From IMG/VR virus record IMGVR_UViG_3300049225_000447, positions 1-32,567 of that record: DNA of 32,567 nucleotides; one strand, written 5' to 3'. This stretch comes from a virus. Below, piece after piece: positions 6,789 through 21,602 of this stretch. The notes under the pieces were generated by a model that was not told where the DNA came from, did not search any database, and saw only the letters and a program-made list of their open reading frames with translations. Numbering within the stretch: the stretch's first letter is position 1; the number at the start of each line of letters is the position of its first letter. A program made the position numbers and the translations under genes.

Positions 6789-7550
6789 TTATAGATAATC
6801 AATGACTTGGGAAGGTGGAACATTGTCCACTAACTTATCAATAGCTTCTTTCTTTATTTGCGAAACTCGCACATAACTAGCTGTACCGTTTATCTTTAAT
6901 ATATCTGCGATTTGCTTTGCAGATTGTTTATCACAATCTAATCCGTAACTTAATCTTATTACTTCATATTCTTTATCTGTTAAGTGCTCTTTCATAATAC
7001 CTAATAGATAAGCATTTAGTAATGCAATGTTATATGGTTCAGATGTGTCTGGTATTTGGAACATAGAGTTCTCATCGTCTTCTGTTGGATTTGCATCTAT
7101 ACTCAAAAAGATTTGATTGAAAAACGTTTGCACTATCAATCTGTCCTTGTCTGAGTTCTTGCGTATTTCATTTAGCTTATGTTCGGGAATGCGCATATCA
7201 CCACGATTAATATCGATAGACCTACGGATTGCGCCTCGTATACGCTTACCTAAAAAAGCTTTTAATACTTTTTCAACGTCGTCTACATCTGCAAGCTTTT
7301 CCCATAGTATGCGGTCAACAGCAGATATCAAACCTAATGACCCTTCTTGTATAAGATCATTGATAGTCATTACACCTGATGCTTGTTGTGTAGTTGAAAA
7401 CCTTCTAGCTATATTTTCTACAAGCGGCAAGAATACTGTAATTAATTCTTGTCTTGTATACTCATTGAACTGTTTATGCGGTATTAACTTTAAGGAAACC
7501 TCTAAGTCTTCTTTATACCGAATATAGTTCTGTACATTATATTTCTTCAT
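6789..7550 (-). CDS. Phage RNA polymerase sigma factor (sigma-70 family)
   Basis: The 253-residue protein shows sigma region 2 (LPLVENIARRF at 41-51; DLIQEGSLGLISAVDR at 65-80), a region 2.4/3 segment GAIRRSID...RIPEHKLNEIRK (106-131), a finger-like SIDANPTEDDENS (150-162), and region 4 LTDKEYEVIRLSYGLD...ASYVRVSQIKKEAI (190-236). It would redirect host RNA polymerase to phage promoters. The repeated GATAAT-containing elements in this window are obvious candidate targets, but that link is inferred. Its first bases overlap the preceding HTH gene by 14. Confidence 0.88.
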   Translation of the reverse strand: MKKYNVQNYIRYKEDLEVSLKLIPHKQFNEYTRQELITVFLPLVENIARRFSTTQQASGVMTINDLIQEGSLGLISAVDRILWEKLADVDDVEKVLKAFLGKRIRGAIRRSIDINRGDMRIPEHKLNEIRKNSDKDRLIVQTFFNQIFLSIDANPTEDDENSMFQIPDTSEPYNIALLNAYLLGIMKEHLTDKEYEVIRLSYGLDCDKQSAKQIADILKINGTASYVRVSQIKKEAIDKLVDNVPPSQVIDYL

Positions 7551-9556: not shown

Positions 9557-10162
9557 TTAGTGATATACTAATCCTATTTTTTTGTTCTTACTGAACCATT
9601 TCGTTGCAAACAAATCTATTTTGCTTGCGTTTACAAACCCGGCACGATCTAGCTCTTGATCGGATTTGAATATCTTTGTATACCTATCTTGCTCATAATC
9701 AATCATTTGCACCTGTTTACCGGCATCACTAAATATGATATCAAAGTTAGGGGGTAAATCGGTTTTGTGAAACATATCTACCATATTAGTATAACTGTAA
9801 AAATTAACAGACGGGTTGTGTATAGCAATCTCAATCCACTTCTTTAGATATTTGGGACTGTAGTAGTCTCCGCTATCATGGACCCGTACATAGTCTGGTC
9901 GCTTGCGTTTAATCTCTACGTTCATTGCCTCTACGAACTCATCTGTTTTGGTGAGTTGATAGCGCTTTTCAAACGCCGGCTGTACGTTGCTCCATATGTA
10001 TGCTCCCTTCTTAGCGTAACAAAATTTTACGCAGGAATCAGCCATAGGGCAAGTAAGTTTGCCGGACGCAGACTTGTAAGCCGGTATTCCGAAATTGAAT
10101 ACACGTACCCCCAATTGTTTGCTTGTCTTCTTGAGTTTCCCGTTCTGTGTTAATAAATTCAT
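9557..10162 (-). CDS. GP88-like phage protein with Cys cluster
   Basis: The 201-residue protein has LTCPMADSCVKFCYAKKGAY, a C-x5-C-x3-C cluster with CYA, and VRVHDSGDYYSPKYLKKWIE followed by VNFYSYTN. This is the pattern of the phage family named after mycobacteriophage L5 gene product 88, as far as I recall it. The three cysteines could hold an iron-sulfur cluster, and the HDSGD segment could be catalytic. The function is not established. It is coupled by ATGA to the small gene upstream. Confidence 0.7.
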   Translation of the reverse strand: MNLLTQNGKLKKTSKQLGVRVFNFGIPAYKSASGKLTCPMADSCVKFCYAKKGAYIWSNVQPAFEKRYQLTKTDEFVEAMNVEIKRKRPDYVRVHDSGDYYSPKYLKKWIEIAIHNPSVNFYSYTNMVDMFHKTDLPPNFDIIFSDAGKQVQMIDYEQDRYTKIFKSDQELDRAGFVNASKIDLFATKWFSKNKKIGLVYH

Positions 10163-11236: not shown

Positions 11237-11465
11237 TTAGCTCGTAGTATAGTACAGATAATAGTAAACTATACTTATCGTCGGTCTCTTCAACTATACC
11301 GTCTTCAAACATTTCTTCGGTTATCGTTTCAAGTATTTGGTCGCGTATTACTGTTTCGACGCGATCGAGGAGATGTATAGCATCGGAGTTGCCGTGTAAA
11401 ACAATTCCGTACTTATCTTTAAGTTCCGCTAATCGCAGTGCTTGATTACTTTGCTTGTCTGTCAT
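11205..11465 (-). CDS. Hypothetical protein, 86 residues
   Basis: It begins MTDKQSNQALRLAELKDKYG and ends YYELIYKLNTDAKR. Mostly helical and acidic in the middle (ETITEEMFEDGIVEETDDKY). The last residues are encoded by the promoter element of the next unit, and the small gene ahead of promoter copy 5 ends the same way (IYKLNTNR). Function unknown. Confidence 0.6.
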   Translation of the reverse strand: MTDKQSNQALRLAELKDKYGIVLHGNSDAIHLLDRVETVIRDQILETITEEMFEDGIVEETDDKYSLLLSVLYYELIYKLNTDAKR

Positions 11466-11712
11466 AGTTGTATGTTTCTACTAGTTCGTTCCAATCTACA
11501 TTATTTAAGAACAGGTTAGCATAGTCTACAATCAAACCAACTGCCCCACTGTTTTCAAATACCGTATTCTCTACTATTGCTTTTAGTAAGTCTACGTATA
11601 TATCCTCGCCTTCATCCCACTGATAACCGTTTAGTATATCGTTGTGAACACGAAAGGTTGCGTAATTACTCCATCCGTTGTAACCGGTGGTATTCCAAGC
11701 ATGTTTACTCAT
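11446..11712 (-). CDS. Conserved phage protein (NGWSNYATFRVHNDI type)
   Basis: The 88-residue protein begins MSKHAWNTTGYNGWSNYATF and continues RVHNDILNG. That opening is a strong family mark shared with small proteins from many phages (I believe a DUF7249-type family). The rest is helical and acidic. No function is established. It overlaps the next gene by 20 bases. Confidence 0.72.
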   Translation of the reverse strand: MSKHAWNTTGYNGWSNYATFRVHNDILNGYQWDEGEDIYVDLLKAIVENTVFENSGAVGLIVDYANLFLNNVDWNELVETYNYDRQAK

Positions 11713-11727
11713 AATTTATAATTTTAG

Positions 11728-11821
11728 TGGACGTGGCAGGGCTCGAACCTGCGTATAGTCAAACATATTTTTCAACAAGTTGATCTTTGCTTGTGACTAT
11801 CAAAATCCTGATTTCACGCCC
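11728..11821 (-). ncRNA. tRNA/tmRNA-like RNA without an anticodon arm (94 nt)
   Basis: Read on the minus strand: a 7-bp acceptor (GGGCGTG at 11821-11815 with CACGTCC at 11735-11729, one G-U pair), discriminator A at 11728, and a perfect T arm (GCAGG, loop TTCGAGC, CCTGC). In place of an anticodon arm there is a 7-bp helix, ATAGTCA with TGACTAT (11800-11794 with 11761-11755), capped by a CAAG/CTTG hairpin. The D region AAATCAGGATTTTG lacks normal tRNA position 8-9 bases. This is the layout of the tRNA-like half of tmRNA, but no tag reading frame is present. CCA is not encoded. A decayed tRNA is the main alternative. Confidence 0.5.
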
Positions 11822-11973
11822 AGTTGAGAGGCCGCGCGTCATTTACCGGTGTGTACCCCGACTTATGCCTCTCGTTTGCTACTCGCGGAGTTCATAACGA
11901 TCCCTCGCCCGTCCGTAGCTCTGTTTATTAGACCTGCCGTGTCATCTCCTCCCTGAGTACACACGGCGACAGC
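11822..11973 (-). other. GC-rich, foldable non-coding stretch upstream of the tRNA-like RNA
   Basis: No reading frame of note is present. The stretch is visibly richer in G+C than its neighbours. Perfect inverted repeats include GAGAGGC/GCCTCTC (11826-11832 with 11867-11873) and GCCGTGT/ACACGGC (11936-11942 with 11961-11967). A further pair GGCGAC/GTCGCC (11965-11970 with 11982-11987) shares bases with the second stem, so the two cannot form together. The loop of the second stem on the minus strand holds GGGAGGAGATG, a strong SD plus ATG opening the 5-codon frame MTRQV. It could be the 5' part of a longer RNA ending at 11728. Confidence 0.4.
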
Positions 11974-12165
11974 CTACTTACGTCGCCAAGACTTGTGCAC
12001 TGCTGCGCTGGTTGCTTGACTGACGATTTGAATAGTGTTACCGGTCTTATGGTTGATAATGGGTACATAGCTATACTGTTCAGTGTCCGAACAAGTTGTG
12101 CATTTTGAGTACCCGAGGTTTACTCGCCCCGCCGGTATTGTATTGTTACATTTACATTTTCTCAT
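11974..12165 (-). CDS. Zinc-finger-like small protein with leaderless-position start
   Basis: The 63-residue protein begins MRKCKCNNTIPAGRVNLGYS and continues KCTTCSDTEQYSYVPI, so Cys4, Cys6, Cys22 and Cys25 can form a zinc site like that of DksA/TraR-type fingers. HKTGNTIQIV is a second conserved patch known to me from related phage proteins. A DNA- or RNA-polymerase-binding role is plausible but not shown. The ATG is six bases after the GATAAT of promoter copy 3. Confidence 0.7.
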   Translation of the reverse strand: MRKCKCNNTIPAGRVNLGYSKCTTCSDTEQYSYVPIINHKTGNTIQIVSQATSAAVHKSWRRK

Positions 12166-19786: not shown

Positions 19787-21358
19787 ATGGAATATAATAA
19801 CCCAAGCGAGATAGTAAAATCTTTATCCTTCGGGAGTGAAGGTAAAGATAAAGTAATGGCAGGTGTAGAAAAGCTTGCAAAAGCTGTGAGCTCTACTTTA
19901 GGTGCCTCAGGTAAGTGCGTTATATATGAAGATGCGTTAGGAAAACCGGTCATAACAAAAGATGGTGTAACGGTTGCGGAATCCGTAGTCTTAAGAGACC
20001 CAGTTGAAAACATCGGAGCGACACTTATAAAAGAGGCAGCTAAAAACACGGTCAGAGAAGCGGGTGACGGTACCACAACGGCTACCGTACTCGCTCACTG
20101 GCTACTCAGTAATGCCAGTAAAGAATTAGATAAAGGCGAAACAGATGTTCGCTCTTTAAAAGCAGGCGTGGAAAAAGCTGCGACAAATGTAGCTAAATAT
20201 ATTGATAAAATAGCTGTACCTGTAAAAGACTCTATGTTAAAACAAATAGCAACCATTAGTTGTAACAATGATACAGAACTTGGTGAAAAAATAGGTGATG
20301 CATTTGAAAAAGTCGGCAAAGACGGAATTGTATTAATGGAGGAATCCGATACCGGCGAAACTTATGTTGAATTCGTAGAAGGCGTACAGTTAGAGTCAGG
20401 ATTAAAATCTCCGCATCTTATTACAGATAAAGACAAAAACAGAGCTGTTTTAGATAACCCGTATGTTCTTATTGTATCTTCTCCTATACCTAATATTAGA
20501 AAAATACAGGGGGTGCTAGAACATGTTATAAAACAGAATAGGTCCTTATTAATTGTTTCTTCAATTGAGCAGCAGCCAATGGCAGCTCTTTTAGCTAATA
20601 AAGTAAAAGGTAATATAAAAGTTAATGTTATTGACCCTCCTGGCTTTGGGCCGTCAAAACAAGACACAATCGAAGATTTAGCGTTTTTAACAGGTGCAAC
20701 TGTTATAAATGAAGAACTAGGTGATGATTTAGATCTTATAGAACCATCAGTATTAGGCGAAGTTACAAAAGCTATAACTGATGAAAAAACAACAGTTTTG
20801 CAAACTCTAGAGCTAGGTGAAGATTTAAAAGAAAGAGTTTTGCAAGTTGAACAAAAAATTAAAAACGAAACTAATCCATATTTTAAGAAACGATTACAGC
20901 AAAGACTAGCAATGCTAAACGGTGCTGTCGGCGTTATAAAAGTTGGGGCTGATTCTAAAATTGAGCTTAAAGAAAAAAGAGATAGGGTTGAAGATGCTTT
21001 ATTTGCCGTAAAAGCCGCGCTTAAAGAGGGTATAGTGCCAGGTGGTGGTGTCGCACTTATGAACGCAGCTCAAAAAATAAATCCAAAAAGTAAAGGAGAA
21101 GAGGTCCTATTAGGCGCTATACTATCGCCATACAGAACTATTCTTAATAATGCAGGACTTAGCGATAATTTAAGCATGGAACGCAAAGGCTGGGGACGTG
21201 ATGTTGTAACAGGCAAGCCGACTAATATGATTAGAGCTGGAATTATTGATCCGGCGTTTGTTACAAAAACTGCTCTTAAAAATGCGGTATCAGTTGTTAA
21301 TACAATTATATCTGCTGACTGTATAATCAATAATATACGATTAGATGAAAGCAATTAA
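19787..21358 (+). CDS. groEL: Phage-encoded chaperonin GroEL (Cpn60)
   Basis: The 523-residue protein aligns along the whole of bacterial GroEL (about 548 residues). ATPase motifs are intact: PVITKDGVTVAE, AGDGTTTATV (equivalent of D87) and DALFAVKAALKEG (equivalent of D398), as is PGGGVALM. The apical substrate face differs: the stretch equivalent to E. coli RGYLSPYF reads SGLKSPHL, and the REMLPVLEAV equivalent reads RKIQGVLEHV. The GGM-rich C-terminal tail is absent; the protein ends IRLDESN. It probably folds phage virion proteins. It is followed by groES with 14 bases of overlap. Confidence 0.95.
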   Translation: MEYNNPSEIVKSLSFGSEGKDKVMAGVEKLAKAVSSTLGASGKCVIYEDALGKPVITKDGVTVAESVVLRDPVENIGATLIKEAAKNTVREAGDGTTTATVLAHWLLSNASKELDKGETDVRSLKAGVEKAATNVAKYIDKIAVPVKDSMLKQIATISCNNDTELGEKIGDAFEKVGKDGIVLMEESDTGETYVEFVEGVQLESGLKSPHLITDKDKNRAVLDNPYVLIVSSPIPNIRKIQGVLEHVIKQNRSLLIVSSIEQQPMAALLANKVKGNIKVNVIDPPGFGPSKQDTIEDLAFLTGATVINEELGDDLDLIEPSVLGEVTKAITDEKTTVLQTLELGEDLKERVLQVEQKIKNETNPYFKKRLQQRLAMLNGAVGVIKVGADSKIELKEKRDRVEDALFAVKAALKEGIVPGGGVALMNAAQKINPKSKGEEVLLGAILSPYRTILNNAGLSDNLSMERKGWGRDVVTGKPTNMIRAGIIDPAFVTKTALKNAVSVVNTIISADCIINNIRLDESN

Positions 21359-21602
21359 TTATTTCGTAGTTATTGAAAAAATAAAGGAAGCACCGAAGAC
21401 AGTAGGTGGGCTTGAGCTTACGGAATCGCAAAACAGCGACGTTAGGTACTTGAAGGGTAAGATTATATCTGCAGGTAATTTAGTTGAATCCCTTAAAAAA
21501 GACGATATTGTTTATTACGACAAGCATAATGGGCACGGTATAGAATGGAAGAATAAGCTGTATCATGTGCTAAAGCTCGGCGATATAGTTATGGTTGAAT
21601 GA
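21345..21602 (+). CDS. groES: Phage-encoded co-chaperonin GroES
   Basis: The 85-residue protein has the GroES layout: MKAINYFVVIEKIKEAPKTV, mobile loop GGLELTESQ (E. coli GGIVLTGS), KGKIISAGN, KKDDIVYYDKHNG and the C-terminal LKLGDIVMVE. The mobile loop carries glutamate where the usual hydrophobic Val of Ile-Val-Leu sits. It would cap the phage GroEL and perhaps also host GroEL. Translation is coupled to groEL upstream and to the next gene by ATGA. Confidence 0.88.
   Translation: MKAINYFVVIEKIKEAPKTVGGLELTESQNSDVRYLKGKIISAGNLVESLKKDDIVYYDKHNGHGIEWKNKLYHVLKLGDIVMVE

Follow-up and report, generated by a model that had tools for sequence, protein, structure and literature searches.

Positions 11728-11821 of a 32,567-nt stretch of viral DNA (the whole of which is called the window here) can be read as an RNA with the acceptor and T arms of a tRNA and with a long helix in place of the anticodon arm. 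This raises the question of whether the locus encodes a reduced tmRNA, an RNA that mimics tRNA or the remnant of a tRNA gene. An earlier note on the sequence had put forward all three readings, and its interpretation was partly supported by the analysis below, in which the element emerged as very probably a tmRNA-like RNA of the type that retains only the tRNA-like domain (TLD).

Structure of the element in the window

The TLD-only tmRNA-like element, 94 nt including the discriminator A73, lies on the minus strand and occupies exactly 11728-11821, with its 5′ end at 11821. Read 5′ to 3′, it consists of GGGCGTG, AAATCAGGATTTTG, ATAGTCA, 32 nt, TGACTAT, AC, GCAGG TTCGAGC CCTGC, CACGTCC and A. 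The 7-bp acceptor stem claimed in the earlier note was borne out, with GGGCGTG (11815-11821, minus strand, as for all parts of the element) pairing with CACGTCC, which is followed by A73 (11728-11735); one of its pairs is a G.U pair, G3.U70, to which the third base of the 5′ strand contributes the G. The T arm (11736-11752) is as perfect as described, with 5 bp and a TTCGAGC loop, and the 7-bp helix at the anticodon position proved correct on the minus strand, where the P2-like strands ATAGTCA (11794-11800) and TGACTAT (11755-11761) enclose 32 nt. These 32 nt (11762-11793) form an exchangeable centre whose core, ACAAGC...TTGAAAAnnATGTTT, continues into the 3′ strand of P2. The D-domain linker, AAATCAGGATTTTG (11801-11814), has 14 nt compared with 10 in most relatives, and a short hairpin of 3-4 bp is possible within it. 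No CCA end is present in the DNA of the window element, as the bases after A73 are CT.

In the window and in the family described below, the T loop is of the TTCGANN type and the T arm is followed directly by the 3′ strand of the acceptor. The family D-domain has a GG and no regular D stem, and P2 replaces the anticodon stem. The window linker departs from the family consensus, which counts against the reading as a TLD-only tmRNA. Folding of the window element returned the same structure at -26.0 kcal/mol with z = -2.4, and 2 of 200 shuffled sequences equalled it, so that the folding score by itself gives modest support. Since z was only -2.4, the case for the element depends on its relatives. 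The structure at 11728-11821 is real and goes beyond chance, because the relatives keep the pairing while the sequence changes and because an independent covariance model matched the same positions.

Collection of relatives and their distribution

With the protein of the 88-aa ORF just downstream of the element (11446-11712, minus strand) as the first bait, three relative contigs were obtained, each with the same ends of the element and a different centre. A sequence pattern made from the element ends matched 37 viral contigs, and a pattern made from a separate RNA motif, module C, matched 58; by the latter route, the element was detected by covariance model in 40 of 51 newly fetched loci. A looser element pattern matched at least 120 viral stretches, with three bacterial MAG contigs among the matches listed. 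Altogether, 109 distinct element sequences were gathered, and the fold recurs on viral contigs. The covariance model R1, built without window-type sequences, matched 11728-11821 with 36.1 bits (E 4e-7), its sole match in the whole window. When 148 genomes from the order of a Bacteroidetes MAG were searched, R1 matched in only one, on the MAG contig with a phage-type locus; thus the family is virus-borne, and a cellular RNA family was rejected as an explanation.

The window phage is marine, with a probable host among the Bacteroidetes. Judged by sequence, the window also encodes GroEL-like and GroES-like proteins (19787-21358 and 21345-21602, plus strand); other genes encode a GP88-family protein (9557-10162, minus strand) and a sigma-70-like factor (6789-7550, minus strand). 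At two loci (L163 and L099), two tmRNA-like elements stand in tandem. In L097 (an actinomycete MAG contig), L108, L110, L122, L147 and L149, whose lineages are apparently unrelated, the TLD-only tmRNAs have an inner motif, P2-AAAGCC..GGAA-P2′, that varies rather little. A structural scan of the isolates with blastn matches (RaK2, Av-05-like, Medea1, Kenrey, Rey, Olaya, EvePickles and CcrPW) revealed no TLD-only element, several of these matches being tRNAs or YrlA-like RNAs, and Cellulophaga phage phi17:2 had no TLD-only element either. Unannotated matches to YrlA (RF02553) at 28-44 bits, with a cut-off of 69, were noted in Rey (L170), Olaya (L171), CcrPW (L173) and Kenrey (L169).

Covariation and the alanine-identity set

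The compensatory changes that the earlier note had proposed to look for were found in relatives. The P2 helix averaged 5.75 bp over 64 sequences, compared with 3.40 bp when the 3′ partners were shuffled among them, and none of 500 shuffles reached the observed value. In a fixed register, with P2 pairing left unselected, each position paired in 70-97% of 60 type A sequences. A 32-sequence alignment had 97.2% of its cells paired, with both sides changing in 10 of 17 pairs; its P2 figures are inflated, as the type A members were picked for good P2 pairing, and part of the agreement at its acceptor and T-stem ends comes from the search patterns. The unbiased test of pairing was made with 31 distinct elements from loci found without the element sequence. 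All 31 carry G3.U70 and A73, the determinants of alanine identity in tmRNA and tRNA-Ala, while pair 4 varies between CG, AU and GC; this count omits two chance pairings, GAACATA in L073 and an overlap of module C with the second tRNA-like family, TLS2, in L095. Neither a loss of pairing in related phages nor a full tRNA model with a normal anticodon loop appeared.

Comparison with tmRNA and tRNA models

The covariance comparison suggested earlier favoured tmRNA. In a direct genome search with the tmRNA model RF00023, the window element scored 33.0 bits over model positions 1-374, compared with 10.9 bits for the tRNA model, which covered the T arm only. The score is below the Rfam gathering score of 47, which counts against the TLD-only tmRNA reading, and since some cellular tRNA-like matches reach about 27 bits with the tmRNA model, 33 bits alone is suggestive and short of proof. 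The first relatives scored 31-37 bits, and type A elements mostly 31-45 bits. Type B relatives, of 78-79 nt, exceeded the gathering score with 64.7-66.1 bits; in them, about 304 positions of the tmRNA model shrink to about 11 nt, and the centre has one short, near-constant form. The Bacteroidetes MAG with a family member also encodes a full-length tmRNA, which has exactly the same D-domain, TGGTTTTGAC, as type B. The class extends beyond the phage group of the window, as TLD-only forms on other viral contigs scored 46-71 bits, some of them (48.8-70.9) above 47. An unrelated 145-kb Cellulophaga phage with a large tRNA array gave tmRNA scores of at most 16.2 bits.

ARAGORN reported nothing at the element in the window, Rfam cmscan at gathering thresholds gave no match to it, and cmscan of the 3.1-kb locus containing it gave none at E ≤ 1. 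The window element forms no full cloverleaf with a 7-nt anticodon loop and has 10.9 bits where RF00005 asks for at least 29, and a plain tRNA with an odd anticodon was therefore discarded. A local scan returned only a chance-level match to tmRNA_permuted (11.8 bits, cut-off 47, E 5.1); with this score and the standard order of its parts, the element was not taken for a permuted or two-piece tmRNA.

The absence of a tag frame between the helix strands, as noted earlier, holds in substance. One frame of the centre reads SKDQLVEKYV followed by a stop; each of the three differences in L037 is an amino-acid substitution, and in L088 the frame is broken. A frame of the form GCN..stop occurs in 32 of 109 sequences, the C-termini have no common sequence, and a hidden tag was rejected because no frame is conserved among the relatives. 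There is no pseudoknot domain, the centre of the window element being 32 nt long. SmpB was found in 0 of 27 related records, some of which may be fragments, so a phage-supplied SmpB was set aside, and a full-length tmRNA was found in 0 of 37 viral records searched. The mini-tmRNA of the earlier note is thus supported by the higher score of the tmRNA model, the constant G3.U70 and A73, the missing tag frame and the intact relatives. A tRNA mimic aimed at aminoacylation or EF-Tu is compatible with these results and would become part of the mini-tmRNA mechanism, in which charging is itself a prediction.

Exchangeable RNA modules at the locus

Most relatives have the element as the 3′-most unit of a noncoding stretch, usually of 0 to about 360 nt, behind a small CxC/CxxC ORF, which in the window is a putative zinc-finger ORF of 63 aa (11974-12165, minus strand). 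The stretch is composed of recurrent motifs, and the same motifs occupy element centres. Three modules precede the element on the minus strand of the window: a structured one, GAGAGGC-(ATAAGTC..GGGTACACACCGGTAAATGACGCGC)-GCCTCTC (11826-11873), with the same core and altered stems in L002 and L003; one with the core GAGGGATCGTTATGAACTC (11879-11918), present at 10 loci with differing flanks and once within an element (L120); and one with the core GTACTCAGGGAGGAGATGA (11928-11972), present at 4 loci. The centre of the window element is found again in L018 and L037, each time with other upstream neighbours and in L018 behind a different gene, and its core has another stem and an inner hairpin in L088. 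Near-identical copies outside any element exist for 25 of 64 centres.

Inserts are common to four scaffolds, namely the element, module C, module F and TLS2. Module C and the element share 57 insert pairs (best E 2e-46), with fewer for module F and TLS2. The closing helices of the inserts covary, with 5.62 bp compared with 2.93 bp after shuffling in the element and 5.53 compared with 3.11 in module C (0 of 500 shuffles each); module F and TLS2 inserts, small in number, showed no covarying closing helix. Nesting of modules occurs as well: where the AGAAATAGGAG/CACACTAACT module of L075 has a loop of four bases, its counterparts in L071 and L055 contain a different module. We infer that modules are exchanged through homologous recombination at short constant motifs. 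It is conceivable, and we propose it tentatively, that these phages keep a combinatorial system of RNA cassettes, in which small structured modules, their cores conserved and their stems free to change, recombine and become nested within several scaffolds (the TLD-only tmRNA, module C, module F and the second tRNA-like RNA), and in which the alanine-identity TLD would bear interchangeable functional cargo RNAs, for example against varying host defences.

Several other observations were made on these modules. Module C has the form GACGAGTAGCTTAATTAGG-(insert)-CACATAAGTGAATNGCTAGC and occurs once per contig on 58 viral contigs (e.g., L044:1375-1393 and L010:4384-4402); its helix-closed inserts and the tmRNA-like centres draw on one common pool. 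TLS2 has the form AACTAGGTMWGG-(variable)-CTACYGACGRGTATGAGGTTCGANTCCTCACTAGTTAC, its centres are exchangeable too (L021, L031, L032, L047, L051, L053, L054 and others), and its acceptor end is a poor fit to a normal 7-bp stem. Larger recurrent structured modules with the cores AGCGGATAAATGACAATACTAGTTAACTACCAGTCCG and ATAAGTCAGGGCATACTAGTAAATGACGTGCAT abut the element upstream in L013, L020, L022, L025, L028 and L034. Near module C, the noncoding stretches of L081, L086 and L096 are far longer and contain different motifs (e.g., GGTAACAGTAAGC..GCTGAATCCAACCGA), of which one also occupies the centre in L076. Rfam 15 identified no module in the loci scanned, including those with the AGCGGATAAATGACAATACTAGTTAACTACCAGTCCG and ATAAGTCAGGGCATACTAGTAAATGACGTGCAT cores.

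Proposed mechanism and alternative explanations

Constant alanine-identity determinants together with the lost coding domain suggest that the element would be charged and would enter the path of SmpB and EF-Tu with no resume codon. In the mechanism we propose, a tmRNA-derived RNA encoded by the phage would have been cut down to the TLD and P2, with a short exchangeable module in place of the mRNA-like domain and pseudoknots. The element may be transcribed together with neighbouring genes, its ends matured by host tRNA enzymes and its CCA added by the host. Alanyl-tRNA synthetase would charge it via G3.U70 and A73, and EF-Tu and host SmpB would bind it. Lacking a resume codon, it would then tie up SmpB and/or stalled ribosomes with no tagging, and host trans-translation would be damped during infection. 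Such a decoy for SmpB and the ribosome is the leading candidate mechanism, with about an even chance of being right, because a TLD-only RNA has been reported from phage DS6A, as has inhibition of tmRNA by a similar molecule. The long, varied centres of many copies would be needless in a pure decoy and count against it; this cargo may consist of tolerated passengers, of functional RNAs on a stabilising scaffold or of diversifying counter-defence. We rank the decoy first, a scaffold role second and tag-free rescue third.

As a natural tRNA scaffold, the TLD would be a cassette for processing and stability, freeing and shielding a cargo RNA at the place of the anticodon arm; the cargo would act, and alanylation and SmpB binding would be incidental. 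The hypervariable, modular centres fit this role, as do their copies outside the element and on other scaffolds, the helix-closed inserts of module C and the occurrence of one centre within the element at different genomic positions (window and L018). We nevertheless consider a scaffold rather unlikely, as it explains neither the invariance of G3.U70 and A73 amid covarying neighbouring pairs nor the short, near-constant centre of type B.

Tag-free rescue, in which an alanyl-TLD with SmpB would take the nascent chain from a stalled ribosome, which would then be freed by drop-off or hydrolysis, aiding translation without degradation tags, would agree with the intact charging features and with PMC11915505, which describes SmpB alongside tagless mitochondrial tmRNAs and reports a proposal that these help in a similar way. 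It is improbable, since the effect reported for the DS6A-like TLD RNA in PMC4131195 and PMC11915505 is inhibition of host tmRNA, and the release step for such a complex is purely hypothetical.

The element could also have arisen from an ordinary tRNA that lost its D stem, had its anticodon loop replaced and converged on the TLD layout. The type A linker of flavophages, TGGTTAGA, is similar to the D-loop of an ordinary tRNA, which counts against the tmRNA reading, a D-like hairpin of 3-4 bp is possible in the window and in L018/L037, and ARAGORN names one relative a 97-nt tRNA-Gln. We judge this origin distinctly improbable, as the tRNA model scored below the tmRNA model wherever both gave scores and as type B combines its high tmRNA score with a host-like D-domain. 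A decayed tRNA is ruled out by the covariation of the anticodon-position helix across many relatives, and decay in general or an attP fragment of a host gene is hardly credible: the element has neither anticodon nor tag frame, and attachment sites often lie in tRNA and tmRNA genes, but all helices are kept with compensatory changes, both halves are present rather than the 3′ half alone, and a tyrosine integrase (PF00589) was found in 0 of 28 records, some possibly fragments, in a search directed at tyrosine integrases, and an attP remnant was rejected on this ground.

Comparison with known systems

What is new here is the breadth of the TLD-only tmRNA over many phages and the exchangeable modules in its centre. 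We know of no other natural RNA locus in which structured cassettes are recombined in such a manner, and the open-licence PMC literature yielded no description of the broad occurrence, the natural insertion of modules or the shared module pool. The wide occurrence of the TLD-only form, with an alanine-identity pair that stays constant amid change, points to a testable general counter-measure against, or control point for, ribosome rescue during infection; the nested, exchangeable modules are a separate surprise beside it.

In the laboratory, tRNA scaffolds are used to express a cargo RNA in place of the anticodon arm, an artificial arrangement that the element resembles in the placement of its cargo and of which it may be, hypothetically, a natural equivalent. 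YrlA (RF02553) is likewise a tRNA-like RNA of phage genomes, from a different family and not present in the window. Permuted two-piece tmRNA (RF04321) also occurs in marine phages, Melnitz among them (PMC9004378); it shares with our element the status of a marine phage tmRNA, whereas the order here is the standard 5′ to 3′ one. Organellar tmRNAs with no CDS, comprising mitochondrial RF02544 and two plastid genes of about 65 bp (PMC11915505), also have no tag frame; unlike them, the element is carried by phages, in one piece, in standard order and with inserted modules. With standard bacterial tmRNA (RF00023), it has in common the G3.U70 acceptor, A73, the T arm, a D-domain without the usual D stem and P2 at the anticodon position, and the covariance model covers both model ends; it differs in having no tag frame and in a pseudoknot region that, in short forms, is reduced to about 28-45 nt. 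The one phage precedent is mycobacteriophage DS6A, reported in PMC4131195 and PMC11915505 as a single phage example of a TLD-only tmRNA, where a DS6A-like RNA is described as inhibiting tmRNA, perhaps through titration of SmpB. By this published description, the DS6A RNA is likewise phage-encoded, with a TLD and no mRNA-like domain; whereas DS6A is one phage of an unrelated host, the element described here is found in many phage sequences, mostly with exchangeable centres.
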